Shown here in pieces: positions 537-33,790 of a DNA stretch of 64,000 nucleotides. The notes beneath the pieces were generated by a model, which searched no databases, had not been told where the DNA came from, and was given only the letters and a program-made list of their open reading frames with translations. The position numbers and the translations under genes were made by a program. Within the stretch, counting starts at the first letter, position 1. Every line of letters begins with the position of its first letter. The stretch spans positions 15,445,574 to 15,509,573 of the forward strand of contig OZ025248.1 in the NCBI GenBank assembly GCA_964019135.1, written 5' to 3'. Source of the stretch: Arenicola marina (Eukaryota; Annelida; Polychaeta; Arenicolidae).

Positions 537-802
537 TTAATGATCCGACCACCGCGCGAGGAGCCACGTGGTCCAGTCGGAACTGACGTAGGGGGCGCTG
601 TAGTCGAAGTGGATCAGTTGACAGGTGGTGGGCGGGGCGTCGGCGGCCATGTTGGTCAGGTATTGAACGGCACGACACTGTTGGTACGCTTGGCAATGCA
701 GGACACAGCGGGACACTGACCAAGTCAGTATTTCCTGCAGCACGGTGCCTTGTATTTGGTAACCAGGCATTCTAGTGAAACCAACAAGCGGGTAGCCCGT
801 CT
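537..802 (-). CDS. Exon 26: PAN/apple domain 5 and stop codon
   Basis: Starts after CTTTCCAG and reads GYPLVGFTRMPGYQIQG, SRCVLHCQAYQQCRAVQYL and TTCQLIHFDYSAPYV. It ends WLLARWSDH followed by TAA at 539-537. No AATAAA lies between the stop and the LINE junction near 470, so the mature 3' end may lie inside or beyond the LINE. Confidence 0.85.
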
Positions 803-3800
803 CTGGAAAGGACAGCACACCGCAAAGTCACGTAGGCGGCGTATGTACTTGATGTGAATAGTCCGAATTCCGTCAGGAATGAATATATTATATGGGTGAA
901 CTGTTACAGTAGTAACTGTACATTTAGGAATATAACTCAACCTTGGACTGGACCCCTTTTGGAATGAATGCACTCCATCATTGAGAAAAACCAGGTAATA
1001 ACAGAAGCGAAACATTCTCGGACAATGGGGTTAATGGCAAGAATAATGATCTGGCTCATGGCTGCTTGGCTCAGCCGTAGGGCGGGGTTACCTACCAGCC
1101 TCACACATGCCGGCCGCGCCTGTTGAACTGCAGAAGCACTCGTAGCCGACGGATGAGTAGGAACATCGTTGAGACGAATGGCAAGGGTCAAAGAAGCATG
1201 GAGCCTCTGGAAATTAAACCGTATCATATATATATCATAGGGAATATATTTATTCAATAACCTGCTGCCGGAAACGTCAATGTTATTATTTTATTATTAC
1301 AATATTCAAAGCAAAGAACCTACCATTTATTTATTCTTTCACCAACTATATATAGCAATATATAGATATTGCACCTACTATGCTATTAAGTCAATGGTAA
1401 CATGTCATATTACATTATTTTTGGAATATCATTGGTGTATTGTTTAACCTATAGCTGAAATTGAAGTTTTGTTACTGACACTGTGTCTAAGACTTCTGTC
1501 AGTATAATGCTATGTTCGGTTAGTACATGTATTTATGATCGTATTACACAGTTCAGTGTATTAGATCTATCATGATATTGAAGTCACTAATAAGTGGTAC
1601 GATCACTGTATGAGATGACGTCATATGATGGGCGGCAGTAGCACGTACCTGGGTCGTCGGGATGGTCGACCCACAGACGGACAAAGTGGCGTTCCTCCCC
1701 GTATAGCTGAGTGACCCCTGTGACCTGGCTGGAGATGACCACCTGAGTGAGGTCCTGCAGGGTCAGGTCGCCACAGGACAGGGTCAACAGAAAGTCCAGG
1801 CCATCCGTCTGGTAAAACATGGATCACAGACATATCCACATACATGTGTCGGTCAGTAGCACTTGTGCTAATGTTTATTGTAAACTTTTATATACCGAGG
1901 TTAAATAAAGTTTATGTTATCGTATCTTATACCAAAGATATTAGTACACCAAGATAGATCATACGGCGAGCGCCCATTGTAAAATGTTTAATGCGGCGAG
2001 TAGTGGCGCCGCTATGCGGCCAGCCAACTGCGTTGACGATAGCGCTGTCTGCGTGATAAGCGGCGCCCTGTGAGCTACATATAGGATACAGCGCTATTAA
2101 TCCCGTTGATTTAAAGCCTGGTGTTGTCTTTTCATGCTTTCAGGTATATTTCGCATAAAATATATATAATATTGTAGTTGTTATGCGGCAATAAATAGCT
2201 ATTATAGTATCATCAAGGTGTCATTTGCCGAGTACGTCATTCACTGGCAGTCAACTGTTTGGCTCTCCTGACTTGCTGATAACTTTGCTGGTTGAAAAGT
2301 AAGATGCACCCTTGACTGGTTATCGATTATAAAACACAACTACTTCATCATTTTTAGCATAGGCGGCCTCCGGTCTTTGCTTTATTGGCACATCTTGTCA
2401 TACAATAGATGTCGATGGTTACACAAGACCCTGAAGATATGTCTTTCGTGAAGAAGAGAGTAGCATCTCAGACAATAAGTGCAATGAAAGTGACTTACCT
2501 AGTTAAGTCCTCCTGATATAAATACTAATATTTATGCGCATGTTGTTAAGCATGTTTTGGCCAGATTGTGGCACTCTCCTATTAAAGAGTGTAGCTTTCT
2601 TATGAACTATATCATCAACATTATCCATGTCAAATATTTTATTTAGGTAAAGAAAAAATAAGACATTAAAAATAGTTGCGTTTTATTATCATGAAATGAT
2701 TTTAATTATATGCCTAATTAATTATTTAACCCTGTCTTTCCATGGATGTGATTCTGCATATTCTAAGCCTAAATATTAATGCTAAACAACATGTTTACCC
2801 AAGTGAAGTTTTTTAATAGAAATACAAACATCAACAAGATTATTCATTTCTACAGAACGATATGAGCAGCTTCCAGAATGTAAACTACTACGGCTGATGC
2901 AGATACTGGACTTGTTCAACAAGTCGTTCTTCCTTGCATCGACCACCCACGCATCTGTGGCATCTGAAAGCGGTAACAATAAAAAAACACTCTTTATAAA
3001 TACAAATGTTTATAAACAAAAAAGAAATTTAAATTGACAAATGTCCAGTAGAAACGCAGACAAAGGCTGTTCGTCTGGGTAGCTAGTTTCATCAAAAGTA
3101 GCCAGACAGCCAGTAGATCTATGATCATATTATATGGTCTTAGTTGACCTAATTTTGATTCAAACCCCATGACATCGACCGGGACACCTGATTGCACATT
3201 CTTGTTGTCATCTGGTTGAGTAATGATTGGCAAGAAAAGATTTTTGACTGATTTTACTCGCATCAGTCGCCGGCTTTGCCATGGGCGATAATAGATAATT
3301 ATCAGCAGTTGTAGTGGGATAATCGATACGCGATATCCACGAATGATAAATCAACGCAAGAAGCAGGTCTTACCTTTCTTTTTCTTTGGGGAAGCTGAAG
3401 AACGGCATTCCGTGACATTTATTTCGGGAATTCGCGCAATTTATGGCAGCACAAACTTGACGTGGATGCCTGTTGACTGTGGCGCTGAGCAACACTACGC
3501 GCTCACCGCTTGGCGGCGCCACCGGCGGACGATTCCAAGGAAATAGCCGTATGACCTATCTTGGTGCACTAAAAATTTTGCTTATATATGTATGTTAATC
3601 GCGCTGTTGGATTAACCTCACCACTCGGAGTCGATTGGTTAGTTGGATGCTTCAATAAAAAAAAAGCTGCGAATGAGTGATGAAGGGACAGCAATAGTTA
3701 TGATATCAGCAAATATGTGGCGGGTGGCGCGATTTGATATAGTGGTCCTTTCTCCTACAGCGTCATTTGTTATTGGCCACCTCGCACGTCTTGTCATCAC

Positions 3801-6800
3801 TCTTTCGCCTAGGACCAATGTGCCACCTGTCACTATCTATCACCAATTGTTTTGCCAATGCCTAACATAAACCACATTGGTAACGTTAGTGTTGAACAAT
3901 TTGATGAACAAACGCATTCCTCGATCGGGGGTTAGTCCTTACCACGTAGTGAGGCATACACATATCAGCGGCGGACGCGAGGGACAGGCCCGAGATCTCT
4001 TTGATGGGCGCCTGCCGCGAGACTGTGTCCGTCAGGGCGTGGGCCGCCCGGGCCACCCACGTCACCGACCTGCTTCCGGCCTCACTGACGTGTTCTATAG
4101 TGTACTACAACAACAAGGAACGCGGCATTAGAGTACCGTTACTTGGCGCATGATCTGACTTATTCAAGTAGATGTTGGTATCTAGTCATAAGGGCCTTCT
4201 CGGCTTGTCCCCTATAATGAATTACTAATAATTACCATAATCCAAGGATACATTCGAAAGCAATGGCGTAGGTCTACCCTATCTTAGATTTCTTATTCAA
4301 ATCACTCATGCCAACCTGGACATATTAACAGTACTCTAAATCCACAACCTGGCGGACGTTGATTTATAATCATAACGAACAGGTTTTATCACGATCATTG
4401 CATCCTCTCCCATTTGGATATACGTTTTGACCCGCCAGCTCTGATGAGACTGGATGCCTTCTGTATGCTGTAGGCCTGTAGCCACACACCTCATAGTGGT
4501 CCCCGGGCATGGCCTGTCGCATGACGTCAGCAGTGGCCAGGATGGAGTAGTCGATGGTGAGCCCAGCAGCCACCGCGTTACGGGAAGTCAAGGATGTCGT
4601 CGTCCACCGGCTGTGGGCAGACATCACATGATGCGCCATATGGCACGTCACATGTAAAGTCACGTGATAAGTCACATGACACGTCACATGACATGACATG
4701 TGACGTAACAGATCGCATATGGCGCGTCACACAACATTGCGACAATGTTTTTTTTTTAACTTTTATTTATCGAGATTATCAATATTGAAATACACATGTG
4801 AATTACCACCTCGTCCGACAGTCTTAACGGACGATACTGATTTGATTTGAATTAGAGCGTTTGCTTTGTTTTGCCTATTATTCAAAATATTCTTAATAGA
4901 CGTAATCAAACGGTAGGTAACTAATTGCATTTGTGAGGGAATTCGTTGAGCTTATATTTTATATACTTTACCCAGAGACGCTGTTGGCAACAAGGATACG
5001 GGGACTTCCATCGCCTGACACCTGACAGTGCACGTGAATGACATCCCCGCTGTCGGTTGTAATGGGGTACAGTCCATTCACTAGGGGGCGCCCCATTGCC
5101 AGTAAGCCATATCTGACGTGACGACAGGAGCGCCACCCTGTTTGTTGGTAAGGTGGGGGCGGAGAGAGTAAGGAGTTAGACGGCACCAATACGAATCCTG
5201 TGCAGGTAAGCTGTAATTGAGATTCGTTTGGGTATATGGTTGTGTAAGTATGACATACTTATATATATATATATAATATTCACAAAACAACAATAATAAT
5301 CTTAATTTTTCTATAACGAGGCTATAACCTACATATTGGGTGCACCATATATGATTGCATCGGTTATGTAATCATCTTACCAAATGAACCGCACGACCAC
5401 GTATAGTGATTACTGTCGTCAGAATCCATCAGTTGTCCTTTCACCTTGAAGAGGACGCACGTGCTGTTTTGGATCACGTCGGCCGACACACACTGCTTCG
5501 TGTTTTCACACATCTCCAGACATTCCGTCCTTGACAGAGTCATGAGAGGATCGCTCCATATGGCATCTGTTAGGGAGTCAACCTTGGTCGAGGCGGCCTC
5601 AGTCCATTGGAAGGAGCATTCTACAGACAGCGGAAACAATTAAGTGGGGTTTGATTAACTCGCACAGAACCGAAACAAGCAAGATAATCTTCAGTATGCT
5701 GGTGAAATGAAGAAACGAAATATGCGATTATTAACGTATTATTACATTATTAGTAATTCATTATAATTGATAGATTCATGGCTCAGTTATAGCTGCTCAT
5801 CTGGCGATGCCCCATGTACGAGACATATGGTTTGATATCTATAACGTTCATTTTTATCATATCTATAACCATGCCAGAAGGGTCAAACTGCTCAACGACG
5901 TTGTTGTACTCAAACAGGTCACTTCCACCACGCCAGGGTACGTTGTAATTAGCAATATGACTTTTTATTAATTGAACGCTGTATAGTTGTATCCAAGTAA
6001 AAAATCATTACATGAATGACTTGTATCTGCAAACATCATTTTCCCTGAAACGTATTTGAAATATTTATCAGTGCTGTTTCATCAGCTACAATGCTATGCC
6101 ATATGTTATACATGATAAACTGTGGGTACATAAATATAATGTGGCCTGAATGGCCCATTCATTTACATACTCAAACATTTAGCGCTCGACGTAGCAAATA
6201 TTTATTTCTCTTGAAGGTCAAGCCGAGAAGAAGGATCTTGTGAGCATACTCACGCAAACAAACTCTGCGGTATAGAACTCCGTTGAAAGTCTGATGCAGA
6301 ATGTCCCCCTGTTGGTCCTCGGGAAGTTTGAAGTAACACGTGCCGTTGTCGAAGTACATCTCCACACACATGTCCAGCTCACACTGCGTGCGACACGGAC
6401 TAAGGCTCGTGTCCTTCAGGGTCTTGAAGGGCCAACCGGTCACCATCGATAGCGTGTCATCCACGGCCACCCAGCTCTGAAAACCTGGATTGAAATGTTC
6501 TCATATATGAAGTCAAGTCAAATATCATTTATCCAAACCAAATGTACAAAAAAAATAAAAAAGTCCTGCATACATCAAGTAAAAAAAAAGAGACTCCAAC
6601 TATAACCCTAGCTGGGTTGCTGGCGTTGGAGCCTCCCAGATATTAAATAGGAGAAAGTCGCTGCGGCATATAACCTTGAAAACAATAATCCAACACGGAC
6701 CCACGACCACAACAATGTTATGCGATTAAAACAAATGCAGGAGGGCTACAGAATATAATGTCATAGTTATTAAATGCACAATAAGCTCAAAACAATTGCA

Positions 6801-9800
6801 AGCGGCAGGTATAACAGTGTGGAATATTACAGTCATAAGAATATGTATCAACAATATTTTTTAAATATATTTTGCATATCCTTCTAAACTATGTGTATGA
6901 ACCTTTTGAATAATTCAATAGTGGCGATTTCAACCAGCCTTTATCTGACACATCTCGTAACAAAGTCATGCTGGGCTTTTACGGTGTAAACATATTTTCG
7001 GTAGCGAGTAAAATGAGTATGCACTTCGTCATTTCGGACCATGGACAGCTTATTAAAAAAAGTCGTTTCAATAGCGCTCCAAGCGACCTTTATGAATCAT
7101 GTACGGCGGTGATCGAGCTTTGGTAACATCGATAATCAAAAGTACACCGTAGTGGTAGCATACTATGGATAGGTGCTACTTAAAAAACGCGAGCGTATAT
7201 TTATTAATTCAGATATTCCGAGGGGATACATCGAGATTAATATTTAAAATTAATCTCGCTTCGGCTTGCCATGAAGAATATCTTTGGCGGGATGACGTAT
7301 GCCATGCACGTGCTTGTCATATCATTCGGTTGCTTAGGAACTCCCATTGTGACATCATGTTTATAGCATTTTGACGTCACAACTACTCACTATGAGAGCA
7401 GCCGATGGGCGGTCACCAAGAGCGCTCTGCTTGGCAACAGACATTGTCATTTAGCCTGTCGCTTATAAATTAACTTTAATTTGAAGTATACATGCAGTGT
7501 TAACATTGAATCATTTATTCGTTAATTTTGTGGGGCAGCTGAGACATGCCATAATAGGCTCCGACCTCTCTTTGCTTGAATACATTTATGTAAAGCTGAT
7601 ATTTATTCCCGAATCCGAAAACGTTTCATGGGGGCTGTCACGCGAAATGAAAGTCTTAAGCCTATGCTTGAAATGGACTTTGAATACGCATGCATGTTAC
7701 TTTAAGAGCTCGCTTGCGCTCGCTAATATGGATAGGTGCTACCTAAAAAATGCGAGCGTATATTTATTAATTCAGATATTCCGAAGGGATACATCTAGAT
7801 TAATATTCATCTCACTTCGGCTTGCCATAAAGAATAGCTTTGGCGGGGTGACGTATACCATGCACATGCTTGTGGCATATCACAGTTGGTTGCTTAGGAA
7901 CTCCAATTGTGACGTCATGTTTATAACATTTTGACGTCACCACTACTCACTATGCAGCCGATGGGCGGTCACCAAGAGCGCTCTGCATGGCAACAGACAT
8001 TTAGCCCGTCGCTTATACTAAATAAACTTTAATTTGAAGTACAGGCTTACATCCAATGTTAACATTAATTTTGTTAATTTTTAATTTTGTGGGGCGGCTG
8101 ATTTAATGTACAGCTGATATTTACTCCGAATCCGAAAACGTCTTATGGGGGTTGTTACGCGAAATGAAAGTTCTAAGCCTATGCTTGAAATGGACATTGA
8201 ATATGCATGCATGTTACCTTAAGAGCTCGCTTGCGCTCGCTATAAAGATAAAATTATCCTCTAAAATTGTCTTACTTTCTGGGCATTCGTGCTGGTTTTT
8301 CGGGATGCTGCACGCGTATGGGGCGAGTTGTTGGGCACTGTCTAGGCACGTCGTTGGAGTCGTACAGAAGTGAACACATGGACCTTCTGAAATAAGGAGA
8401 GAAAGCTAGCAATAATAATAATAATAATAATAATATATGTATTGCCATATAAAAGATGTCGCTTAATACATCGTATATAATATAAAATATGAAACATATC
8501 TTACATATGCATACTAATGTGACCTCATTATCTATGCCAGAAGGCACTATACCAAGTTTGTTTTTGTTATTTTTTAAATTGGTTAAACTTCACTACTATT
8601 TAGGATACTCCATGGCTTGTCATGCTTCTGCGTCGCTCTACATTTAGGATGACTAGAGTGTAACCAGACATTACCTATGGCCGGGGCTCTGACTGCGATC
8701 CGGATGCTGTCTGGGGCCTGTGCCAGGATATTGGACCCGGGTCCACTCGCCGACGACACGAGAAAGCTGGAGGTGTCGTTCGATATAGCAACACCTTGGT
8801 CTACGCCGTCATCCTGGAGAAATGGGCATAACAAGTCCTATTGCGTAACTGAAGTCACAATTCTGAATGCTGTACCAAAAGTAATGAGCACAAAGCCCGG
8901 CACAACATATAATGTATATGTAGTGACGAGCGTGAATGGTGAATACTATAATAAAGACTGCGCGCCGTGTCTACGGGTCGAACACTGTGATGACGACATA
9001 CCACGTATCGCGGAGGTCGCAGGAGGTGAGCGGGATACAATAGAGGTACGCCTGTCAAGAGGAGGTCGTTAAACACAACGCCTTCTCCCAGTGGGCTGCC
9101 GGGACTGGTCCATCGCATGCTGGCCTGGACGACACCTGCCCTGATGACCTGAACCATGCCCTGGTAAACAGCACGAAAAGTAACAGGCTAGTCAACATTA
9201 TATAACGGTTGGCTGGTTGGTGTAGGTAGGACGCCATGACATAGTCAGGTCATAGCATGACAATGAGAAGGGTTCAGACAGAGAGGAGCCATGTCTCCGG
9301 GAGTATCTTAACACTCTTTGCGAGTGGCATCTTTATCTTGAATCGATTCGAACCACGCACCAGCCGCTAGGGCTTGCCTAGTAGACGATATCTGAAAATA
9401 GTCAAACGCGCTACCTACTGCACCACAGGGTGACCTAATATGGCGAAGTGAGCATTGAATGCTATTACGACAACACGATGACACATTAACACATGTTAAG
9501 ATATCAATGCTTGGCCTAGTGTCCTTACGCTGCAGTCTGGGGTATATTGTGATACTGCACTGTAATCCCCATGCACAGAGACATGGACAATACAGACAGC
9601 ATTGGAATGAATTGTTAACCTGAGCCAGTGTGCCATACCTCCATTACTCCTGTTCCATTTCCAATGATATTAGTTTCGACCAGATCAAATATACTGTAGT
9701 CTCCATTCAAAGATGGCGAATCTTTGTTCTTCTCCCCGAAGCCGTCTTCCCAATGTCTACAAATACAAATGACATTGCGTCATGTGCGTGCACCGCCTGG

Positions 9801-12800: not shown

Positions 12801-13135
12801 CTTACCTGACCTGTACGTGACCATGAATCCCAGACCACTGACGCCATTGTTGTTGGAGCGCCAGACCACGAGGGCCTCGTTCCTGGTGGATCTCACTGTA
12901 GGTGGCGCTGCCTGTCCGCAGGCCTGCAGCAGTAACGGACGACTCTCCACCAGTCCGTCATGGATCTTCAGGTAATCCGCGTCACATCCGGGGGTGTCCT
13001 CGATCTAGAATAAGTCCTGGATCTAATCTCATATCATATCATAACTCATGATCATGATAAATATATCCAAGGAACCTATTTACCTTATAGCGGGCAATGA
13101 CATTTACATAAAGAAACAATCAGAACGATTCTATA

Positions 13136-13171
<36 letters not shown>

Positions 13172-16100
13172 TCGTTAAACGCTCTGGCATGTGAGACCAA
13201 ACCAATTGGACTTTGCAAAAGTGAAATTCGAGGTTCCTTTAGACAAAAGAAGACGTGAAAATCATGACTGTATAAGTCTGTCATTTCCGTTCATTGACAT
13301 GCATGGTAAAGCTGACAATGTTCCATGGTCGACGATTTCGTTATTTAAATTGTTATACAAGTTACTGGTAATGACTAGCGGTTCACGCATTGATCCATAA
13401 TCACCTTTCGTCAGATGATAATATTTGATCCCGGCATCAAATGTCTAATTAGATAATGTCTCGTTTAAAATAGTTCCGTCTTTTTCTATACCAATTAAGT
13501 ACCAAGTATGGCTCTGGTTTATTCATGACGGAGGAATTTATCATAGGCATTGCCAGCAATACCCTTTTGCCAACGACAATGTGTTTCACTAATATATTAT
13601 GAGGTGGTCCTTCAGGACACTTACGTCAAAGAAGGCGCTGTCGAACCAGAAGACCACTCGGAATCCCGGACTCAGCTGGATGCGCCAGAAGCAGTCAGCC
13701 CCGTCCGGGTAGTTGGTCAGTGGGTAGGACTCCAGAGTGATAGTTCCATACGGGGCGGTGAGCGTCTCGGCGGTGGAACACGCAACTGGTAACCCGAAGT
13801 GAACACATAATACCCATACTGCATATACACAAAGACGTATGTTGGACTTGAATTGTGTACTGTACTCGACGCCAGAGCCATAGAAGTACGCAACTGTGAA
13901 GGACAGTGTTCGTGATTGGCTGACAGGAGGTCAGATGGCAGTACACGCCCATTCATCATAAACACACTTATAGCAACAACTACTTAACTTATAAGTAGAT
14001 TAATACTAATTTCACCGCAAGTTGGTTATTACATTATTTAATTTTGTTTAACATATCTCTAGTCTTCATGTTCACATTGCATATGCACTTTTCCATATAC
14101 ATTTCTGCTCAGAGCTTCTATTAACGAAGCTTCTTCCCCGTGTCGGTGATACTACTAGATAGAAAGCGGGCCACTCACGGGCATTGTCGAGGTCTGGAGC
14201 ACAGACGAGGCCCCTGTCTTGGGAGCCGCAGTTCGTGCTCCCGATGCCGATGTAGGGGTCACACTGGTATGGCTCCTCAGTGGGGCAGCTGGTGGCACTA
14301 GACGACACGGAGCGGAACCACCTCCGGCTAGCGACGGCCGAGTAGTGAACCGTTTCTCTTCTAAACGTCATGTCTGACAAGAATCATAAATGATCTGATT
14401 GTGTAGAGAAATGCGATTATTCAAATCTATCTATAAGCATCATATTATTATGAAACATGCTCCAGATAGACATTAGGAAAGAAAGAAAAAACACGGATAG
14501 AATTTTTTTTGACACAAATAGGGTCGTGAGAGAATAATCTAACATAGCAATTTTTGAACCGGTACAGTCTATTTATTATATATTCGATTAATAAGCATGA
14601 GCGACCTTGTTCACAAACTGTCATCATAGCTGGTACACGGAAGAGTAAATACACAACAAAAATGAGCATGTTACGGTTGTTTCGCCGATAGTAAGGGCCT
14701 GCAGGAATACCCGCTTAATGCTGCATTAAAACCATAAACCAATAAATCACCTTGCGCTTTACTGCCTTCGCACCGTTGTGGATTGCGGATACTATGATCA
14801 GTTACAGACTCTGCCTTTTTAGTCTCTCGACCCGGGCTCTCGAGCTGTAACTCGCGTCCATGTCACCACACAAGTTAGGTTTCCATGTCAGACACACGCT
14901 GGACACACTTCAGTTCTATCAGATTTAACTTAAAGGCCCGGTAACAGCTCACTTATTGAGGGAAGAGCAGAGGGTGGAGCTCGTAAGGGCGATAAACAAG
15001 TATTCAATAGCGGCGAGCGATATAACGCGGAATACGGTTTGAAGCGAGGAAATAAGTTAAATGCAACAACTAAGTAACTCATTATGTAAAAGACAATTGC
15101 CTCAGTTAAGACTCACGGCGTGGAGGTGTGTGTGAGTGTGTGTGTGTGTGGAGGGGGGGGGGGGGGTGTAATGGCAACCAACAGAAATATACATCATGCA
15201 GCATGCGCACCCATGTGGTCACAGATCAGTGCCCGGAAGCCCCGGGAGAGGTCGCTGCAGGCTGTCCCCCACACGCCGTTGAACGACATCTCCAGCCTTC
15301 CGAATGCATATCCTGGCAGCAGTTTGTATTCCACGGTCGGATCCACTGTAACAAAGGATAGCGATTCACAGCGACCGTTTCCTTCTATTGACCATTACAT
15401 CAGGGCCAGACGCACGATTTCGATAAGAAGGTGGTGTGGGGGGGGGGGATTGGCGTGGGATGGATGCTCAGAAAACCGGGGCTGCCCGGAAGGTGACGGT
15501 GGGGGTGTGGGGGCAGGGCTGAGCGGGGGGAGGGGGTCCAGGAGTCGATGCCAAGGAGGTGGGGGTACTGTCACCAACATGGGTGGGATCCAAGCGTAAA
15601 ATTAAATGCAATTTGCACAATACACTTTGGGGACTTACCGCTCAAGAACATTCATGTAATACAACGAATATTGCTATCCCGGCATAAATGTGATTTACCA
15701 TTGATGTCAAGCATTATTTTCCGACATTGAGCTTGAAATACAGGCACAATTAAAATGTAATCATTGGTAAATTATATTATTTCACATCAGTATTTAATTA
15801 CCTTACAATTTGTACACTTATAAACTTATGTGTGCACAGTTTTTTTTCCAAATTGAAAACAATACAATGCAACCAAACGCTCCATGAAATCCGAATATGC
15901 AGATATATGTTAATGACGAAACATGGGAGAATTAATGTACTTACAAAAAGTGTCGTAGCAGATGACACCAGCACTGTAGTAGTCAGTCTCACAGTTATTC
16001 GTGTCACCAAACTGACTGTGATCACAGTCCATGATCTCGCTCTCGTTACCCTGACACGTGACATCCATCAGCCAAATGGGAGTATTGACATAGCTCGTCT

Positions 16101-19100
16101 GAGTGGCGAGACCTCCCGTGTAACCCATGGACCTAGATCAGTTAATGCTACATATATTTATTTAATTAATGAATTAATGCTATATATTTATATTAGTAAT
16201 TAATTAGTTAATGAGATATTTATATTCATTAATTAGTTAATGCTATGTTTATGTTATTAATTAGTTAATGCTATATTTGTGTTAATTAATTAGTTATTGC
16301 TATATACATATTAATATTTCGTGTGGTATGATACATTTTATCTCTAAATATATATATATATATTTTTTCTAACAATATATTTGTCAAATGACCAGGTTTT
16401 CACAAATAAGCAGGCATTCACTATCTACTGCCTAAACTCCATAGTCACATCACTTGTTTCTCACATAACAAACCGGTTATTACCCAACTAACTTATTAAC
16501 ATAACATAACTGAGGTTGACATAAAGGTAGGTAGGCACTTGCATAGTGACCACAGGGGCGGATCTAGGGGGTGGGGGGGGGGTTTACGGGGGTTGCAAGC
16601 CCCCCCCCCTTGGGAACCTGAACATCCACTGTTAAAGTCGGCTTCTCCGAGCACCCCCCCCCCCCACCCGGGTCGCAGGTTTTTCAGAGAGCAACCTTCT
16701 CCCCCCCCCCCACCTTGTCAAATTCCTACATCCGCCCCTGTGACCATACTGACGATACGGAGATAGACGGCGACTTCTTGCCTGCAGAAGACTTTGGCTT
16801 CAGTATCACTCCAGTTATCGGGGCAGATTTGGCCCCAGATGCGGATAATTTGAATCCCTGCCCGTCCATGGAAGGCTAAATTCATTCCCGTATTTTCGAT
16901 GCGGTAATCTAAAAAGAATAACACTCTCCTGTATCGCATTGTAGTTCTTCTATAATAAACAAGGCCCAACTTAAAGACATGGCACTTGTTATAATAATCC
17001 ACTGTGATATAACGTTCTAGTCTGACCTGTATTCCTTGGGTTGTAAATGATTATATGGCGATAAATTATGCAAAGTGTAATTAAAGGCCACATGAGAACG
17101 AAACTAGTAGAGAGTAAGAGTATGTATAAACAATTGTTGTCCGTAACAACCACTTGTAAACAATGCTCGACAGGCCAGTAAACACGATATTTGAGGATTC
17201 TACAACTCATGAATATTCACATATGACGTCATGTACTGGATGAAATAAATACAACAAAATGGCTACAAGACGGTGGTCGGGAGATGCTACCGAGCGATTC
17301 CAGCGACACAGAGGCAAATTGTCGGGAACGAGGTAAAAGGGAGCATAGATCTGCATCTGACCCTAGTTATTGATCTAGTTGCACACTTTGGAACTCCCAT
17401 CCAGTAGAAAACTTCCTTTCTGGGGCCAAGGGTCCAAATACGAGAAGGCTTATAATATTTTTTTCAAAATATAATATCAAATGCGTAAAGCAGAAAAATA
17501 AACGGTATGGTTTCCCCGTATGCTTGAAAGCAGATCTTTCCAGGTTTAGCAAGAAGTATCAACGCTCTCATGGGCCCTTTAAGGCAAATACGTTCCAAAA
17601 TTGCACACATTAGGACACAGCATCAAGACATTATCATTTGAAACATGACGACGTAGTTTAAAAACTTAAGATCATATTGACGAGATATCCAGATAAAGCA
17701 TCACATTAAAATTGCAGCAGCAAAACCTGAAATGAATTGAGGAAGTAAGTATGACGTACTGATAGGGCTGTGGAGATCAGACTCCATGTAGCAAGCCACT
17801 GCTACGTCTTCCGATGCCTTGCCGGCAACAGTTCCAACATCGAATGTGCACTCTCGGAGCGAACTCTCGTTGCCAGTACACATCACGTTACTGAGCCACG
17901 TGATCATGTAACGTTCACCTCGGAAGGCATTTTGAAAGCCGAATCCCCCGTCAAAGCCTGCATCGCGGCAGGTGCTGCTCGCGTCCTCATTGGTCCATTG
18001 ATCAGTGACGTCATTGACCCGCCCCCATACTTCATGGAGGTGTACCTCAACAAGGCCATAGTTGAGGACGGTGTGACCATTCACTATGAAGCGCACATCC
18101 CATCCTGTTGAGAAAAAAAAATATGTGCATTGCAGAGAGTTCGTTCGTGAAAATATTTTCAGCTGTTAAGGGAAAACTTTGTTTTGGGTCATAATGCTTT
18201 TTTATGCATATGCTACATTTATGCACGCTAGATCTGAAAATGACAACTGATTAAGTAATACGTATAATAGATAAATAACTTGAAGAGTGATGTATGATGG
18301 AGTAAAATGTTTAGGGGTTTGGCCAAGATGTAGTAAATGTGTTGTTGTGGCACTGTCGATACCAAAGAGGCGACGATGTAACTCCAACTCCATCACAACG
18401 TCAAGCGTCAGGCGTCAGGCGTCAGGCGTCAGGCGTCAGGCGTCAGGCGTCAGGAGTCAGGCGTCAGGCGTCAGGCGTCAGGCGTCAGGCGTCAGGCGTC
18501 AGGCTCAAGAGAGGCTCAATTCGGGCGTCAGGATCAATTCAGGCGTCAGGCGTAAGACTCAGGCGTCAGGCGTCAGGCGTCAGGCGTCAGGCATCAGGCG
18601 TCAGGCGTCAAGAGTCAGGCTCAAGTCAGGCGTCAGGCGTAAGGCTCAAGTCAGGCGTCAGGCGTCAGGCGTAAGGCTCAAGTCAGGCGTCAGGCGTCAG
18701 ACGTCAGTCAGGAGTCAGGCATCAGAGTCAGGCGTCAGAGTCAGGCGTCAGGCGTCAGGCGTCAGGCGTCAGGCGTCAGGCGTCAGGCGTCAGGCGTCAG
18801 GTGTCAGGCGTCTTGCCCATCACTGACACGTCTCGATATAATCGATAACGTGTCCGCCCAACTCAAAGGAAAACCAGGTGACAACAGTCCGGAAACACGC
18901 ATGGTATGAAAACTTGCGCAAAAATCAGAAACAGACAGAACAGACGGTAAAAACAGACGAATACCCAGTTACACCCCGTCTCTCATGACAGCCGTCGCGA
19001 AATATTATAAGGTGTCACTTTGATGATCCAACGTTAATGAAAAAAATTGCTCGCGCTAACATGAAAATACTTCGCTTCCGTGTATTTAGTATAAGGTTTA

Positions 19101-22100
19101 TCTGCCTGTCTCTTTGTTTAAGTCAAAACACAGTGTAAACCTGGACCCCAATAGCGTTGTCTAAAGTTATATCCAAACAAAGGTTGTAGCATACATTCCA
19201 CACAGAACGCGTTTTCTGCATTTAAATGTTATAGGCGCAATAGCGACAAATCGAGTTCAGGAAGATATCCAATACGAATTTTGCACTGGAATACAGCAAC
19301 AATATGTGCATTTGTCCATTTGGAAAAACATTTGGGTTATTTATATAATGTATAATGCACGAATGGAATTGTTCCATCTTCCACCATTTTACGTGAAGAA
19401 ATGGCGCCAGAATACTGTTTTAAAGGGTTGGATGGGAAGTCCTTTCTACCCTAACCGCTAGGGGTCGGACCTACACGTGACGATAGAGGGAAGGAAGTCC
19501 CTTCCACCTTAACCACTAGGGGTTGCTCTAAATAGTGGCAACTCGACTCTGAGCCATTCCAGATGGGTGCGGTACCTACCGACGGATGCCATCGAATCGT
19601 AGCAGACGACAATCGGCTGATGAAGGTCAGGGTCACACTGCGGCTGCAGACTGGCCCATCCCGCGAATGGACAGTCGGCAAGGACCGCCTCGGATCCATT
19701 GCATTGCAGTTGTTTCATCCACACCGTATCGATATCGCTGTCCAACCCCAGGACGCTGGCGCCAAACTTGTAGGCCTCATCATAGCCAGATTCTCGGCAC
19801 GTGACCAACGCGTCATTCCGCGAGAAGTTCTCGTCGCACACCAGACCTTCCGTCCCGCTATATACGATGGTCACCCGACCGTAGGAGCTTGCGTGACTGA
19901 GATGCAATTCGGTGCCTGTAATGATGATTAGACGCAATTAAAAGAACAAACAATTGAAGTCCAATAAACAAAATCCACTTCAACGGTGCCAGGCTTTTCC
20001 ATAACATTACTTTAGCACACCCAGATGTATAATTAATATCAAGGCAGTATGCGACAACGACAAGGCAATTAATTCAACAAACGACACCCACGCCGAAACT
20101 ACCACAAGGTGACAGACGAATTTTGCAAATTGTACCCGCCATTTTGGTAACGGGTACGTCCGCCCTTAGCAGTGACGTCATACCTGCAGTGACGTCATAC
20201 CTGCAGTGTGTGGGCCGTAGCACGCGACTCCCGCGATGGTCGTGGTGTTGCACGTGGAGTCCACGGTCACGGTGTGGTTGCACTCCTCGAGCGTGGCTTC
20301 TCCGCCGTCACAACCGACGTCAGTGAGAAGGCGACTTCTGGCTTGTCCGACCTTAAATGCCCTGAGTACGATGCAAACGTGTTGCTTATTATAGCCTTAC
20401 AGGTCGCCGCACCGCATAAGTGAAAAATGGGTTCATTGGCGGTTTTGCTTGCATACAGGAACCAAGAACTAGAATAAACTGCGATTCGCGCACCAACTTC
20501 AAACATTCTAGTCGAATTGCTCGGATTTTGCGCAGGCGTCTTCGAACGATTAAGGCTATATCCCCTTAGGGAAACATTCGATCCACGTGCCGTTAGGTTC
20601 TCTCCGGGTGGCCAGAGTACTCAAGGCGAGCGCTCTAACCAACTGAGCTACCGGGCCGGCCTGGGACACTCTATGGAAATTTCATGGAAACTCTATTAAA
20701 ACTATATAACAACTATATGGAAACTCCATGGAAATGATATGGAAACTCTATGGTAAATTATATGGAAACACTAGGGAAATTATGTGGAGACTCTATGGAA
20801 ATAATATGGAAACTCCATGGAAATGTTTAGAATTTCCTTCGGGATCAGTAGTCCCCACCCCATCCTGTTTCCCCTCTTACCCCGGTAGTGGAGTCCCAGT
20901 GGGAAAGCCCAGCTGACGGCAGACGACATTTGTTTCTTGTTGGCCCCAGTTGGCGCCACACACATTGGTCCAGGCCTCATCAAGCCGGGCGAAAACAGCG
21001 CCGTGACTCCGCTTGGAAAGTTGTGCTGCCCACAGAAGAAGCAAAATAGCACCCATTATCAGTGCTTTATATCACAATTTATCTTATATAGAACAACAGT
21101 GGTATAGGGCTGTATAGTTTCATAACATTTTTATAGAAAGAACCTCCGTGAGTTAACAAACTCGATATCAGGGTTTTCCCTGCATCAGATATGTTACTAT
21201 GCCGTATTCTCAATATGAAAAACTGAAAACGTTAATACATATTCTACTATAGACGTGAGGCCATTGTAGTGTTGTTTTTAGCGTTGCTTAGATATGCAAT
21301 AAATATTAAATGGTGCCTACCCCACAGTCCAGTTTCGTTATAACAAGCCACTTGCAGTTTGTTGCTACAACTGTCGTTAGGGGCGGAGACAGGAGGGACG
21401 GTGTAGTCACAGAGGAGCAGCGACGTCTCGTTGCCTGCACATGACGTCACGATCACGTGGTCACGTGTCCCAGGTGAGACATGGTTCATCAGCTCGAAGT
21501 GAGGCTTCGTGCGATACCCGGCGTCATAAGCCATCTGGCGGCAAACCACGTCGACGTAGGGAGTGAGATCGGTCTTGGAGTAAGCGGTGGATGCGCAGAC
21601 CACCCCCCACTCGTCATCAATGTTGAGCTCGACCACGCCGCCGTGGGGCCCGGGAATCAGCCTGACGCTTCCATCTGGGAGAGGCATTAAAGTATGATTA
21701 TGGAGTCATGGTGCAAGGTTGGAACCAACGTCATCATCTTGTGTCAGGCGGAAGTCCCGTAGGAACATCATGTAAGGTGGGACACAAGGACGACGATGAT
21801 AAATTCAAGATAACAGCAAAAACATCAGGGAACCCCCGTGAAGTGACGGCCAGTGCAGTTATAATAAAGACAATCTGAGTAGAGACAGACAATGCATTGT
21901 CAATCAATGAAGTGACAGGCAATGAATTAACAATCAGTGTATTGACAGGCAATGAATTGACAATCAGTGTAGTGACAGGTAATGAATTGACAATCAGTTT
22001 AGTGACAGGCAATGCATTGGCAGTATATTGACAGGCTATGCATTGACATTCAGTGTAGTGACAGGCAACGAATTGACAATCCGTGTAGTGACAGGCAATG

Positions 22101-22752
22101 CATTGACAATGAATTGCCAATCAATGGAGCGACAGACAATGCCTGGATGTAAATGTAGGAATCTTGCGAGAAATAAATAAAACATTTACACATAGCCCAT
22201 TTTTAGCGATATATAAAACAGGGGAAGACCTCTAATAATCTGGTTATGTTTGCAAATATAACAATTAACTAAATGACATTCCAGTGAATATCTGTCGACT
22301 AAGAAATATTTAATATATATGAAAATCCATCCAGTACCTGTGTCTCAATCTTATTTAATATAATATCTGGCATTTGGTTTATATATCTAGCAACGCGATA
22401 TCTCAAACATTGTTCGGCAAACTTATGCTTTACACTTGTAACTAACAGATCATTACTAAAGAATCATGACTCACCTTGCCCCAATTAGTAATAAGAAGGT
22501 AACATCATATCACGTTCAAATCGAGAACGTTATATTTAACCCAGTCTCATGAAATCTGTCGCAATGGTCCCACTTGGCGAGGATGCAGGACTGTATGTTG
22601 TATTGCCTATTGAGATGCGAACCTTCAATTGAGAATGCGTAGCATAATCGACATTGATGTTTCCTGAACTCAAAATTAAGACACTTGCAATACTCACTTT
22701 CTACAGCTGCCACTGTTGCCAACAGGTTGTAGAGTATCCATGACACAACCAT
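537..22752 (-). CDS. Secreted SRCR-CUB-PAN-fibrinogen-like mosaic protein, 26 exons, complete
   Basis: Exons (minus strand, high to low): 22752-22698, 21674-21321, 21025-20881, 20334-20201, 19915-19580, 18104-17760, 16908-16782, 16132-15945, 15345-15211, 14373-14179, 13785-13625, 13004-12806, 12326-12072, 11228-10992, 10235-10073, 9756-9639, 9160-9002, 8813-8675, 8386-8276, 6484-6254, 5620-5381, 5137-4972, 4610-4490, 4104-3943, 1808-1649, 802-537. All junctions preserve frame and the total is 4,902 nt, an exact multiple of three, giving about 1,633 residues. Order: signal peptide, SRCR x6, CUB, PAN x2, fibrinogen-like, Cys-rich linker, PAN x2, fibrinogen-like, PAN. Introns between domains are all phase 1, the mark of exon shuffling. 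No transmembrane segment was seen. SRCR, CUB and fibrinogen-related domains commonly bind glycans or microbial surfaces, so a secreted recognition or adhesion role is an inference. I do not recognise a named orthologue. Least certain are the acceptor of exon 4 and whether a small exon was missed in the long introns near 2-4 kb and 6.5-8.2 kb. Confidence 0.82.
1649..5137 (-). CDS. Exons 22-25: fibrinogen-like block 2
   Basis: Exons 5137-4972, 4610-4490, 4104-3943 and 1808-1649 repeat the exon lengths (166, 121, 162, 160 nt against 163, 118, 159, 139) and the exact phase series (2, 0, 0, 1) of block 1. Matching pieces include SCRHVRYG with GLYPITTDSG, and DYSILATAD against DYSIFDLVE. The second cysteine-containing signature has decayed to VHCQVSGDGSPRI. 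Introns are longer, the last one over 2 kb. Exon 25 has a perfect donor, CCAG|GTACGT. Confidence 0.72.
5381..5620 (-). CDS. Exon 21: PAN/apple domain 4
   Basis: Phase 1-1 exon with CSFQWTEAASTKVDS, ECLEMCENTKQCVSADVI, CVLFKVKG and YTWSCGSF. This is a textbook PAN pattern. The donor is TTTG|GTAAGA. Confidence 0.92.
6254..6484 (-). CDS. Exon 20: PAN/apple domain 3
   Basis: Reads SFQSWVAVDDTLSMV, PCRTQCELDMCVEMYFDNGT, CYFKLPED and LYRRVC. The acceptor AATCCAG|GT is chosen over one 8 bp further in because only it keeps frame from exon 19 and restores the SFQ start shared with PAN 4. Confidence 0.82.
7165..8245. repeat. Intronic tandem segmental duplication, period 563 bp
   Basis: Bases 7165-7727 and 7728-8245 are two diverged copies of the same segment. 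Both begin ATGGATAGGTGCTAC, share GGGCGGTCACCAAGAGCGC and end in AGCTCGCTTGCGCTCGCT. The second copy is shorter through small deletions. The segment lies between exons 19 and 20. Its termini do not show clear transposon ends, so a local duplication is the simplest reading. Confidence 0.8.
8276..8386 (-). CDS. Exon 19: Cys-rich linker
   Basis: A 111-nt phase 1-1 exon encoding five cysteines in about 36 residues (CVHFCTTPTTC, YACSIP, HECPE). Clean acceptor TTTCAG and donor AAA|GTAAGA support it. The second fibrinogen-like block has no visible counterpart. Confidence 0.65.
8675..10235 (-). CDS. Exons 15-18: fibrinogen-like block 1
   Basis: Exon 15 (10235-10073) opens with SCSEWLRHFLSIG, DGLYLVDF, and the fibrinogen-domain signature FCDMTSHGGGW. 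Exon 16 (9756-9639) has HWEDGFGEKN and DYSIFDLVE. Exons 17 (9160-9002) and 18 (8813-8675) are beta-rich and not recognisable alone. Intron phases are 2, 0, 0, then 1 at the end. The N-terminal subdomain is clearly fibrinogen-related. The rest has drifted from canonical fibrinogen C-terminal domains, somewhat as in intelectins, so ligand binding cannot be predicted. Confidence 0.75.
9268..9435 (-). mobile_element. tRNA-derived SINE, family 1
   Basis: On the minus strand an A-box-like TAGGTAGCGCGTTTGAC is followed by a B box GTGGTTCGAATC, then a body ending GACATGGCTCCTCTCTGTC. A second copy of the same family is at 51597-51778. It lies in the intron between exons 16 and 17. Confidence 0.75.
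10545..10885. repeat. Intronic 27-bp minisatellite
   Basis: About 12 copies of a 27-bp unit containing CATTGTCATTGAAACCCATC, in the intron between exons 14 and 15. Because 27 is a multiple of three, long frames stay open on both strands; these are not taken as genes. Confidence 0.92.
10992..11228 (-). CDS. Exon 14: PAN/apple domain 2
   Basis: Phase 1-1 exon with CKKTWHYESDTMGP, CQLSCQNRSACHAFDYD, GCVLYHGN and YHFWRTCG. This is a typical PAN cysteine pattern ending in the W..C strand. The acceptor is GTGGCAG and the donor CGGAG|GTAAAT. Confidence 0.9.
12072..12326 (-). CDS. Exon 13: PAN/apple domain 1
   Basis: Phase 1-1 exon beginning ECESNAGHKQW and carrying SLYDCSNLCDGDHLCQFIYY followed by LRCYMKM. 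The CxxxC...C spacing on the helix and the following Cys fit PAN/apple modules. The donor is TATAT|GTAAGT. Confidence 0.85.
12806..13785 (-). CDS. Exons 11-12: CUB domain (split)
   Basis: Exon 11 (13785-13625) gives LTAPYGTITLESYPLTNYP, DCFWRIQLSPGF and FDSAFFD. Exon 12 (13004-12806) gives IEDTPGCDADYLKIHDG, LLLQACGQ and GVSGLGFMVTYRS. Four cysteines sit in the standard CUB positions. The internal intron is phase 0 and the outer introns are phase 1. The acidic DYLKIHDG segment matches calcium-binding CUB domains. Confidence 0.92.
14179..15345 (-). CDS. Exons 9-10: SRCR domain 6 (split)
   Basis: Exon 9 (15345-15211) gives YAFGRLEMSFNGVWGTAC and ALICDHM. Exon 10 (14373-14179) gives MTFRRETVHYSAVAS, SCPTEEPYQC and DRGLVCAPD. 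The junction completes an Asp codon. Six cysteines are present although the middle is divergent. Exon 9 has a modest donor, ATGG|GTGCGC. Confidence 0.82.
15945..16908 (-). CDS. Exons 7-8: SRCR domain 5, joined by a GC-AG intron
   Basis: Exon 7 (16908-16782) gives DYRIENTGMNLAFHG, WGQICPDNWSDTEAKVFC. Exon 8 (16132-15945) gives SMGYTGGLATQ, DVTCQGNESEIMDC and AGVICYD. Joining at CAG|GCAAGA with the next acceptor gives the canonical VFCRSMGY. No GT donor nearby fits, so this is a GC-AG intron. Six cysteines are present. Confidence 0.85.
16140..16310. repeat. AT-rich degenerate repeat
   Basis: Several imperfect copies of a roughly 25-bp unit with ATTAGTTAATGCTATATTTA, in the intron 5' of exon 8. 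Confidence 0.7.
16553..16740. mobile_element. Short non-autonomous TIR element, hAT-like
   Basis: The ends are exact inverted repeats (CAGGGGCGGAT / ATCCGCCCCTG). They are flanked by a direct copy of TGACCA, a probable target-site duplication. The 188-bp interior is G- and C-homopolymer rich with no coding capacity. It resembles hAT-type MITEs common in marine invertebrates, though an 8-bp duplication would be more typical. It ends 42 bp from the GC donor of exon 7. Confidence 0.7.
17760..18104 (-). CDS. Exon 6: SRCR domain 4, lacking one disulfide pair
   Basis: Phase 1-1 exon with GLVEVHLHEVWGRVND, SSTCRDAGFDGGFGFQ, NVMCTGNESSLREC and VAVACYME. Only four of the usual six cysteines remain. 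The first (after WG) and the fifth (before the last) are missing; these two are bonded to each other in group A SRCR domains. The acceptor is TTCTCAACAG and the donor TCA|GTACGT. Confidence 0.87.
18394..18812. repeat. Heptamer array (GTCAGGC)n
   Basis: Around 420 bp of mostly perfect 7-bp units GTCAGGC with a few interruptions (GGCTCAAGTCA). It lies in the intron between exons 5 and 6. Open frames through it are a consequence of the 7-bp period. Confidence 0.95.
19580..19915 (-). CDS. Exon 5: SRCR domain 3
   Basis: Single phase 1-1 exon. It reads GRVTIVYSGTEGLVC, ALVTCRESGYDEA, VWMKQLQCNGSEAVLADC and PIVVCYDS, with all six cysteines. The donor is GTCG|GTAGGT. A roughly 70-bp imperfect duplication (19435-19535) lies just past it in the intron. 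Confidence 0.88.
20201..21025 (-). CDS. Exons 3-4: SRCR domain 2 (split)
   Basis: Exon 3 (21025-20881) gives GAVFARLDEAWTNVC and NVVCRQLGFPTGTPLPG. Exon 4 (20334-20201) gives RLLTDVGCDGGEATLEEC and IAGVACYG. The junction completes a Gly codon, and six cysteines are present. The exon 4 acceptor (CAGAAG|T) has a weak pyrimidine tract but is the only one found that keeps the SRCR frame. The exon 4 donor lies in a 17-bp exact tandem duplication, giving two identical donors. Confidence 0.8.
20545..20668 (-). mobile_element. tRNA-like SINE head or tRNA pseudogene
   Basis: The minus strand has a near-perfect tRNA A-box region, GTAGCTCAGTTGGTTAGAGC, and a decayed B box (GTGGATCGAAT) at the correct distance. 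The acceptor stem does not pair, so this is not a working tRNA gene. It lies between exons 3 and 4. Confidence 0.65.
20669..20828. repeat. ATGGAAACTC tandem repeat
   Basis: Degenerate units of about 20 bp (ATATGGAAACTCTATGGAAA) lie next to the tRNA-like sequence and end some 50 bp short of the exon 3 donor. Confidence 0.8.
21321..21674 (-). CDS. Exon 2: SRCR domain 1
   Basis: A whole SRCR domain in one phase 1-1 exon: SVRLIPGPHGGVVELNID, then EWGVVC, DVVCRQMAYDAGY, CAGNETSLLLCDY and VACYNE. Six cysteines are in the group A pattern. Acceptor CCCAG at the 5' side, donor TGGG|GTAGGC. Confidence 0.9.
21890..22140. repeat. 30-bp minisatellite in intron 1
   Basis: Eight or so copies of a 30-bp unit with TGACAATCAGTGTAGTGACA, between exon 1 and exon 2. 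Confidence 0.9.
22698..22752 (-). CDS. Exon 1: signal peptide
   Basis: Encodes MVVSWILYNLLATVAAVE, a short hydrophobic leader, followed by a donor AAA|GTGAGT. It ends in phase 1, which fits the phase-1 start of SRCR domain 1. An in-frame ATG lies a little upstream (MCHSFTRDAMVV...). I prefer the inner start because the hydrophobic core then begins at once. Confidence 0.75.
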
Positions 22753-22854
22753 TGCATCACGTGTAAAGCTATGGCACATATACACACGATGTAACATGGT
22801 GGGAGTGAAAACCAAAGGACGAAGATCGTTTGGCAGACGTTTGTATCGAAGCCC

Positions 22855-32700: not shown

Positions 32701-33790
32701 TTGAGCACCGCTCACCTGTCTCTCATTGGACACCGCTCACCTGTCTCTAATTGAACTTCGCTCACCTCTCTCTCATTGGACACCGCTCACCTGTCTCTCA
32801 TTGAACACCGCTCACCTGTCTCTCATTAAACACCGCTCACCTGTCTCTCATTGGACACCGCTCACCTGTCCCTCATTGAACACCGCTCACCTGTCTCTCA
32901 TTGAACACCGCTCACCTGTCTCTCATTGAACACCGCTCACCTGTCTCTCATTGAACTTCGCTCACCTGTCACTCATTGAACACCGCTCACCTGTCTCTCA
33001 TTGGACACCGCTTACCTGTCTCTCATTGAACATCGCTCACCTGTCTCTCATTGGACACCGCTTACCTGTCTCTCATTGGACAGCGCTCACCTGTCTCTCG
33101 TTGGACACCGCTCACCTGTCTCTCATTGAACTTCGCTCACCTCTCTCTCATTGAACACCGCTCACCTGTCTCTCATTGGACCCCGCTCACCTCTCTCTCA
33201 TAGAACACCGCGCACCTGTTTCACATTGAACACCGCTCACCTGTCTCTCATTGAACTTCGATCACCTGTCTCTCATAAAACACCGCTCACCTGTCTCTCA
33301 TTGAACACCGCTCACCTGTCTCTCATTGAACACCGCTCAATTTTCTCTCATTGGACACCGCTCACCTCTTTCTCATAGAACACCGCTCACTTGTCTCTCA
33401 TTGAACACCGCTCACCTGTCTCTCATTGGACACCGCGCACCTGTCTCTCATTGCACACCGCTCACCTGTCTCTCATTGGACACCGCTCACCTGTCTCTCA
33501 TTGGACACCGCTCACCTGTCTCTCATTGAACACCGCTCACCTGTCTCTCATTGGACACCGCTCACCTGTCTCTCATTGGACACCGCGCACCTGTCTCTCA
33601 TTGAACACCGCTCACCTGTCTCTCATTGAACACCGCTCACCTGTCTCTCATTGAACTTCGCTCACCTGTCTCTCATTGAACACCGCTCACCTGTCTCTCA
33701 TTGGACACCGCTCACCTGTCTCTCATTGAACTTCGCTCACCTGTCTCTCATTGAACACCGCTCACCTGTCTCTCATTGAACACCGCTCAC
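23750..33790. repeat. 25-bp satellite array, about 400 copies
   Basis: An unbroken array of a 25-bp unit built on ACACCGCTCACCTGTCTCTC plus ATTGG or ATTGA. Variants GAACACC, GGACACC and GAACTTC alternate. The left end (about 23750-24130) is nearly homogeneous and the rest is mixed. Blocks repeat at 175, 250, 825, 875 and 925 bp, all multiples of 25. One unit near 30970 is two bases short. Open frames of 60-200 codons appear in all phases but carry only the repeat. Confidence 0.97.
24888..24922. repeat. SINE-tail fragment inside the satellite
   Basis: The satellite is interrupted by AATGTTGATGTTTTAGGCCA and a few flanking bases. This matches the tail of the SINE at 35478-35672 (AATGTTGGTGTTTTAGGCCA). 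The 25-bp pattern resumes directly after it. Confidence 0.7.

Follow-up and report, generated by a model that had tools for sequence, protein, structure and literature searches.

A mosaic gene of 27 exons in Arenicola marina, with SRCR, CUB and PAN modules beside partly fibrinogen-like and EGF-like ones

What kind of protein is encoded by a long minus-strand gene of the annelid Arenicola marina, whose modules stand in an unusual order? The gene lies at 22752..537 of the window, by which we mean the whole stretch of 64,000 nucleotides analysed here (contig OZ025248.1, or C1:15445574-15509573 within the 867-Mb genome). An earlier interpretation made from the letters alone, called here the sequence-only reading, had proposed a secreted gene of 26 exons and 4,902 nt. 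From a reading of the whole minus-strand locus, with exons set by module, frame and splice site, we reconstructed 27 coding exons comprising 5,037 nt and encoding 1,678 amino acids. The gene is genuine and well supported. On balance, we think that this one functional gene gives rise to a secreted, disulfide-rich and glycosylated mosaic protein, which would serve as a soluble multivalent binder.

The only stop of the gene is the TAA at the end of the frame in exon 27, in agreement with the closing open frame described before. The introns are of the GT-AG type in 25 of 26 cases; the remaining one, after exon 7, is GC-AG with its GC donor at 16780-16781, and this donor is kept in all three genomic copies of the gene. 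All 16 introns between modules are in phase 1, as is typical of extracellular modules that have been shuffled. With one of the in-frame ATGs at 22779 and 22797 as start, the N-terminus encoded by exon 1 would be longer. Compared to our reconstruction the earlier model was 135 nt short. The overlooked exon is probably 15345-15211 (first half of SRCR6), because its length equals this shortfall; it completes SRCR6 and is found in both other copies. A candidate exon at 2963-2799, with splice-like borders and open in another frame (Pfam match of 16.2 bits in that frame, below threshold), was rejected, since it brings three in-frame stops when spliced in.

The two further copies are situated on the same contig. 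With the window copy designated W, copy A lies about 72 kb off at lower coordinates and copy B about 6.2 Mb off. In both A and B all 27 exons were found without any indel and with every splice dinucleotide kept, including the GC donor. Exon 1 of copy A is the same as in W, and that of copy B is 98% identical to it. The frame of copy B ends at a stop four codons ahead of the window stop; no other exonic stop or indel was seen in this copy. Between W and B, 134 of 5,037 exonic sites are substituted (2.66%), compared to 5.45% of the aligned intronic sites (Fisher p=2e-17; 14,869 of 17,179 intronic bases align). In the aligned introns 107 gap openings were counted. At this rate the exons should have about 36, but the exon-level alignment has none. 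These values bear out the earlier assertion that the closure of the frame exceeds chance. One exonic gap initially counted between W and B is an alignment ambiguity in a tandem repeat of 17 bp at the donor of exon 4 (SRCR2).

The dN/dS ratio is 0.49 for W and A, calculated from few changes (29), and 0.44 for W and B (133 changes). The coding sequence is under purifying selection, which is moderate and without evident diversification. A contrast between the two halves of the gene (0.63 versus 0.34) falls short of significance (Fisher p=0.08, from rounded counts) and is given no weight. Copy A, with a dS of 0.01 and on the same contig, may have arisen by tandem duplication or may be a haplotype that was not collapsed in the assembly. 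Frame, splice sites, intron phase and the two further copies back the proposal of a single secreted SRCR/CUB/PAN mosaic gene. Its exons and two larger units, with the basis of each in brackets, are the following:

22698..22752, minus: exon 1, ATG and probable signal peptide MVVSWILYNLLATVAAVE (frame, GT donor; peptide judged by eye and hydropathy)
21321..21674, minus: exon 2, SRCR1, six Cys (frame, copies, Pfam, Cys count)
20881..21025, minus: exon 3, SRCR2, first half (frame, copies, Pfam)
20201..20361, minus: exon 4, SRCR2, second half (frame, copies, Pfam)
19580..19915, minus: exon 5, SRCR3, six Cys (frame, copies, Pfam, Cys count)
17760..18104, minus: exon 6, SRCR4, four Cys only (frame, copies, Pfam, Cys count)
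16782..16908, minus: exon 7, SRCR5, first half, followed by the GC donor (frame, copies)
15945..16132, minus: exon 8, SRCR5, second half (frame, copies, Pfam)
15211..15345, minus: exon 9, SRCR6, first half, 135 nt (frame, copies, Pfam SRCR over both halves)
14179..14373, minus: exon 10, SRCR6, second half (frame, copies, Pfam)
13625..13785, minus: exon 11, CUB, first half (frame, copies, Pfam)
12806..13004, minus: exon 12, CUB, second half (frame, copies, Pfam)
12072..12326, minus: exon 13, PAN1, start of unit 1 (frame, copies; PAN_1 19.9 bits alone)
10992..11228, minus: exon 14, PAN2 (frame, copies; PAN_1 29.0 bits)
10073..10235, minus: exon 15, FBGL-1, N-terminal fibrinogen/intelectin-like part (frame, copies, profile matches)
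9639..9756, minus: exon 16, FBGL-1, part without domain match (frame, copies)
9005..9160, minus: exon 17, FBGL-1, part without domain match (frame, copies)
8675..8813, minus: exon 18, FBGL-1, part without domain match (frame, copies)
8276..8386, minus: exon 19, degenerate EGF-like module, 5 Cys, end of unit 1 (frame, copies, Cys count)
6254..6484, minus: exon 20, PAN3, start of unit 2 (frame, copies, unit alignment, predicted fold)
5381..5620, minus: exon 21, PAN4 (frame, copies; PAN_3 20.0 bits)
4972..5137, minus: exon 22, FBGL-2, N-terminal fibrinogen-like part (frame, copies, unit alignment)
4490..4610, minus: exon 23, FBGL-2, part without assigned domain (frame, copies, unit alignment)
3943..4104, minus: exon 24, FBGL-2, part without assigned domain (frame, copies, unit alignment)
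1649..1808, minus: exon 25, FBGL-2, part without assigned domain (frame, copies, unit alignment)
1096..1206, minus: exon 26, EGF-like module, six Cys, end of unit 2 (frame, copies, Cys count)
537..802, minus: exon 27, PAN5 and stop codon (frame, copies; PAN_1 27.4 bits)
8276..12326, minus: duplicated unit 1, PAN1-PAN2-FBGL1-EGFL1, 7 exons (BLASTP against unit 2)
1096..6484, minus: duplicated unit 2, PAN3-PAN4-FBGL2-EGFL2, 7 exons (BLASTP against unit 1)

The corrected module order is a probable signal peptide, six SRCR, CUB, twice the series PAN-PAN-FBGL-EGF-like, and a last PAN. Of the domain order given before, the six SRCR, the CUB and the PAN modules stand; the earlier model had overlooked an exon and recognised neither the EGF-like modules nor the internal duplication, and its fibrinogen label was half right. 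In a comparison of the whole protein with Pfam, SRCR (253 bits in 6 stretches), CUB (70.3 bits, positions 1-110 of 110) and PAN_1 (53.6 bits in 4 stretches) all exceeded the cut-off, as expected from the sequence-only reading. The CUB module, which has four Cys, is thus a member of its family, and the PAN_1 score of the whole protein places it with the PAN/apple proteins. Six Cys are present in five of the six SRCR domains, which assigns these five to group A of the SRCR superfamily, defined by six Cys in a passage of the preprint PMC13228809; SRCR4 has four. Taken alone, SRCR6 remains below the cut-off (22.3 against 26.1 bits). The best PDB-sequence matches are CD163 and PIT54 (about aa 142-601) and, for the CUB, cubilin.

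Among the single PAN modules, PAN2 (29.0 bits) and PAN5 (27.4 bits) pass the PAN_1 cut-off of 21.4, PAN1 is just under it with 19.9 bits, and PAN4 is just under the PAN_3 cut-off (20.0 against 21.1 bits). PAN3 alone gives no Pfam PAN match. For this module an AlphaFold model was calculated from an alignment of the window's five PAN exons (pLDDT 76). In a Foldseek search of the PDB, the first 19 of 121 hits contain PAN, mainly HGF N-domains and an Eimeria PAN, with probabilities of 0.93-0.99 and E-values of 0.04-0.19; none of the 121 reached E<=0.001. The predicted fold of PAN3 is therefore most like that of PAN modules.

Is FBGL a fibrinogen domain? FBGL-1 matches Pfam Fibrinogen_C with 19.6 bits over 27 aa (cut-off 22) and FBGL-2 does not match it, so that a whole fibrinogen C-terminal domain (FREP) above cut-off is absent in both; as a control, a genuine fibrinogen domain encoded elsewhere in this genome scores 57.7 and 144 bits in its two exon pieces. 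The N-terminal residues (about 50) of FBGL-1 contain a C-x31-C pair and the motif DGLY...FCDMTSxGGGW. A profile of FBGL-1 and FBGL-2 from the window and copy B finds intelectin-1 and tenascin at E 0.0004-0.001 within residues 18-54, and exons 15 and 22 match the same stretch of a true fibrinogen gene on contig C14, the source of the two control pieces (E 7e-5 and 1e-6, in a search of 8 kb). FBGL-1 has two cysteines and FBGL-2 four. The remaining 140 or so residues of FBGL-1 (exons 16-18) have no match in Pfam and none in PDB sequences better than E=1. A fold search with a model of exon 15 was uninformative (best E 0.47; the fibrinogen-like ANGPTL2 domain at rank 35, E 2.5).

As judged from these comparisons, the likeness of FBGL to fibrinogen and intelectin is limited to the first 50 or so residues. 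Because of this limit and the scores below the Pfam cut-off, we do not count FBGL as fibrinogen-related, and the former label "fibrinogen-like" is retained for the N-terminal part and given up for the rest. Tentatively, FBGL might be a distinct domain made of a fibrinogen/intelectin-type N-terminal subdomain and a part of about 140 residues of unassigned fold. It would have become established within a repeated PAN-PAN-FBGL-EGF cassette, which in this worm lineage was combined with a DMBT1-like SRCR-CUB arm to give a two-armed soluble recognition molecule.

The stretch formerly called "Cys linker" (exon 19) is better described as an EGF-like module with five of the six EGF Cys, without a Pfam match. 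Exon 26 (1206-1096), absent from the former module list, encodes six Cys in the EGF-type spacing of 4,5,8,1,8, with C-x-C between the fourth and the fifth, ahead of the last PAN (Pfam EGF 19.0 bits, cut-off 21.5). When units 1 and 2 were compared by one-against-one BLASTP, 86 of 377 positions were identical (62.8 bits, 3e-15), in a collinear alignment from the first PAN to the first Cys of the EGF-like module. Both units consist of seven exons with identical entry phases (1,1,1,2,0,0,1). This collinearity and exon structure indicate that the PAN-PAN-FBGL parts of the two units derive from an internal duplication. Exons 19 and 26 do not align and are paired by position, length (111 nt each) and phase alone. 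Comparison of the unit pairs by hhalign, with three near-identical rows, gave 55% for PAN1-PAN3, 21% for PAN2-PAN4, 11% for F1-F2 and 0.4% for E1-E2. The apparently odd module order is thus explained by a duplicated cassette, placed after SRCR6-CUB and followed by one more PAN.

CUB and PAN modules are common in this genome. A search with CUB yielded six strong matches, each of which belongs to one of the three copies, whereas the other CUBs had E-values of 7e-8 or higher. For PAN_1, where 150 of 231 candidates were scored, at least 92 matches reached E<=0.01. With the second half of the protein as query, the three loci alone were recovered, apart from four weak matches (E>=0.04). At one of these, on contig C9 (E=0.04), two open-frame pieces within 6 kb are PAN by Pfam; no significant FBGL match was obtained in the 6 kb examined. 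SRCR matches are clustered on contigs C5, C6, C9, C11 and C18 (at least 152, with 150 of 592 candidates scored), and at C5:26.37-26.39 Mb they are evenly spaced with identical scores; these clusters look like a lineage expansion. At C19:548709-554585, on the minus strand, one CUB and two PAN matches occur within 6 kb, perhaps another PAN-CUB mosaic gene.

What could such a protein do? It would leave the cell behind its probable signal peptide and would be glycosylated (18 N-glycosylation sequons are present), acting as a multivalent soluble binder in an immune or mucosal context. The SRCR-CUB arm may have microbial or mucosal glycans and polyanions as its ligands, in the manner of DMBT1-type proteins, and the PAN/FBGL/EGF units may bind proteins or sugars and join molecules together. 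In this way the protein could agglutinate, opsonise or cross-link targets in coelomic fluid or mucus. The most likely interpretation of the modules is a soluble protein of recognition or adhesion, as suggested by the sequence-only reading; its N-terminal half resembles DMBT1. Several points weigh against it. The function is deduced from module identity alone, and tandem-SRCR similarity, e.g. to CD163, often reflects shared mobile modules and not common function, as stated in a passage of PMC3927612. Furthermore, the hydropathy threshold did not flag exon 1 as a signal peptide (best 10-residue mean 1.82). Finally, three copies were found and no large diversified family, the other genomic SRCR matches forming clusters.

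The main rival to a secreted multivalent binder is a secreted adhesive, i.e. a structural protein of mucus, tube or cement without immune role, in which the same modules glue glycans and proteins. Parts of PMC7333891 list an eight-SRCR protein among limpet adhesive candidates (given with 1764, which we take as its length) and report that the sequence with the highest expression in a sea-anemone pedal disc shares tandem SRCR repeats with this candidate. The moderate selection without evident diversification would suit such a role, too. PAN modules combined with fibrinogen-like ones, on the other hand, are more usual in recognition proteins, and we regard the adhesive as rather doubtful.

Alternatively it might be that two adjacent genes were wrongly joined, a DMBT1-like SRCR6-CUB gene and a [PAN-PAN-FBGL-EGF]x2-PAN gene. 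The module content of the two halves is unrelated, the intron between CUB and PAN1 holds two AATAAA motifs, and co-duplication in three copies is compatible with two genes; according to a passage of PMC13228809, automated SRCR gene models may contain false splits or mergers. However, this intron is short (479 nt) and phase-compatible, and its standard donor and acceptor are kept in all three copies. Within it, a scan for hydrophobic start exons, run at a stricter and a looser setting tuned to recover exon 1 as control, found none at either setting. Elsewhere the scan gave 2 (stricter) and 16 (looser) candidates in other introns, including one at 14669 within SRCR6 and none between CUB and the first FBGL; these look like chance. 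The sole open upstream extension of PAN1 with an ATG carries a stop in copy B, and we therefore rejected a second start, or an extended PAN1 exon, at 12471. A PAN protein without signal peptide is moreover implausible. We consider two joined genes very unlikely, and one gene for a soluble protein remains our preferred interpretation.

It is equally improbable that the protein is a membrane-anchored receptor, with an alternative 3' exon adding a transmembrane helix or with the C-terminal PAN not being the true end: the gene is known from genomic sequence alone, and in the 536 bases after the stop no AATAAA was found and an ATTAAA overlaps the stop codon, but W, A and B alike have a stop in exon 27 that ends the frame, and no 19-residue window of the whole protein exceeds 1.6 on the Kyte-Doolittle scale, so that at this threshold no hydrophobic segment and therefore no evident transmembrane helix is present. 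The earlier stop of copy B, by four codons, suggests that the very end of the C-terminus is under no constraint.

In the surroundings of the gene, a reverse transcriptase fragment (Pfam RVT_1, 68.5 bits) lies at 2-415 on the minus strand, just after the stop and cut by the window edge. It is also present beside copy A, but seems to be missing from the corresponding place beside copy B. At 3373-3453, minus strand, in the intron that separates exons 24 and 25, there is the start of a THAP domain (17.7 bits, cut-off 23.9) that runs up to a donor-like site; it may be what is left of a transposon, or a stray exon. A 10-kb tandem array with a 25-bp unit (23756-33790) starts some 1 kb upstream of exon 1; copy A has the same repeat in a shorter stretch of about 3.3 kb. 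Thirteen more separate tandem arrays (score >=300, units of 6-267 bp) occupy 35.7-64 kb, and a run of unknown bases lies near 44.3-44.6 kb. At about 49.2-49.5 kb, minus strand, an exon of an ELKS/CAST-type active-zone protein (Pfam Cast, 77.9 bits) adjoins a large minisatellite, which itself can be read as an open frame. Rfam detected nothing in the window at gathering thresholds.

Contig C762 (15,942 bp) of the assembly is the mitochondrial genome. By their translations 12 protein genes were named on it, all on one strand; atp8 and the rRNA genes were not located. Cox3 is followed by nad6/cob, atp6 is placed between cob and nad5, nad4L/nad4 come after nad5, and nad3 has nad1 and nad2 on either side. 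A passage of PMC2639372 gives the same four departures from the bilaterian ground pattern for annelids, pogonophorans and myzostomids. The mitochondrial gene order thus assigns the window to an annelid in the broad sense.

How new is this gene? Each ingredient, and domain shuffling in SRCR proteins, is already well known. A search of titles and abstract starts revealed no paper with this module order and none combining SRCR, apple domain, fibrinogen and CUB; neither is the order described in the parts consulted of PMC5117596, PMC5119243, PMC7333891, PMC3927612 and PMC13228809. By this literature search, as distinct from protein databases, the order is likely to be novel. It is less surprising than first thought, because SRCR proteins with diverse partners are common in invertebrates: passages of PMC5119243 report SRCR and CUB proteins in cnidarians, and the preprint PMC13228809 calls, at one point, the partner domains of holothurian SRCR proteins too diverse for classification. 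What the locus adds is a large mosaic in three copies on one contig, with an internal block duplication preserved exon by exon, and in FBGL a half-recognised domain whose C-terminal part has no match in Pfam or PDB sequences. It should help to annotate SRCR genes in annelids, and its product is a candidate for a soluble protein of recognition.

Several known systems share parts of this architecture. The tandem-SRCR proteins CD163/M130 and PIT54 gave the best PDB-sequence matches mentioned above; to our knowledge they have no CUB, PAN or FBGL. The SRCR domains of CD163 belong to group B, in contrast to the six-Cys group A type of five of the six domains found here. The five PAN modules resemble PAN/apple proteins such as HGF (N-domain) and plasma kallikrein, PAN3 being nearest in its model to HGF N-domains and the Eimeria PAN, whereas no kringle or protease Pfam match at E<=1 occurs in our protein. 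Fibrinogen-related proteins, intelectins and tenascins are similar to the N-terminal FBGL-1 residues only; they differ in the unmatched remainder and in the score, which is far higher for the true domain of the same genome. DMBT1 and DMBT1-like SRCR-CUB proteins likewise combine tandem SRCR with one CUB in a large extracellular protein. Human DMBT carries a C-terminal zona pellucida domain, according to a passage of PMC5119243, in the place of which we found the PAN, FBGL and EGF-like half; the whole protein has no zona pellucida match in Pfam at E<=1 and thus falls outside the DMBT1 family in spite of its SRCR and CUB. Within the annelids, the SRCR and FREP repertoires of Olavius algarvensis offer a comparison (PMC5117596). 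The word CUB is absent from the main text of that paper, and C-type lectin, trypsin, EGF, LDL receptor and Ig are among the SRCR partners that it names as examples. As in A. marina, these are multi-SRCR proteins of an annelid with mixed partner domains.

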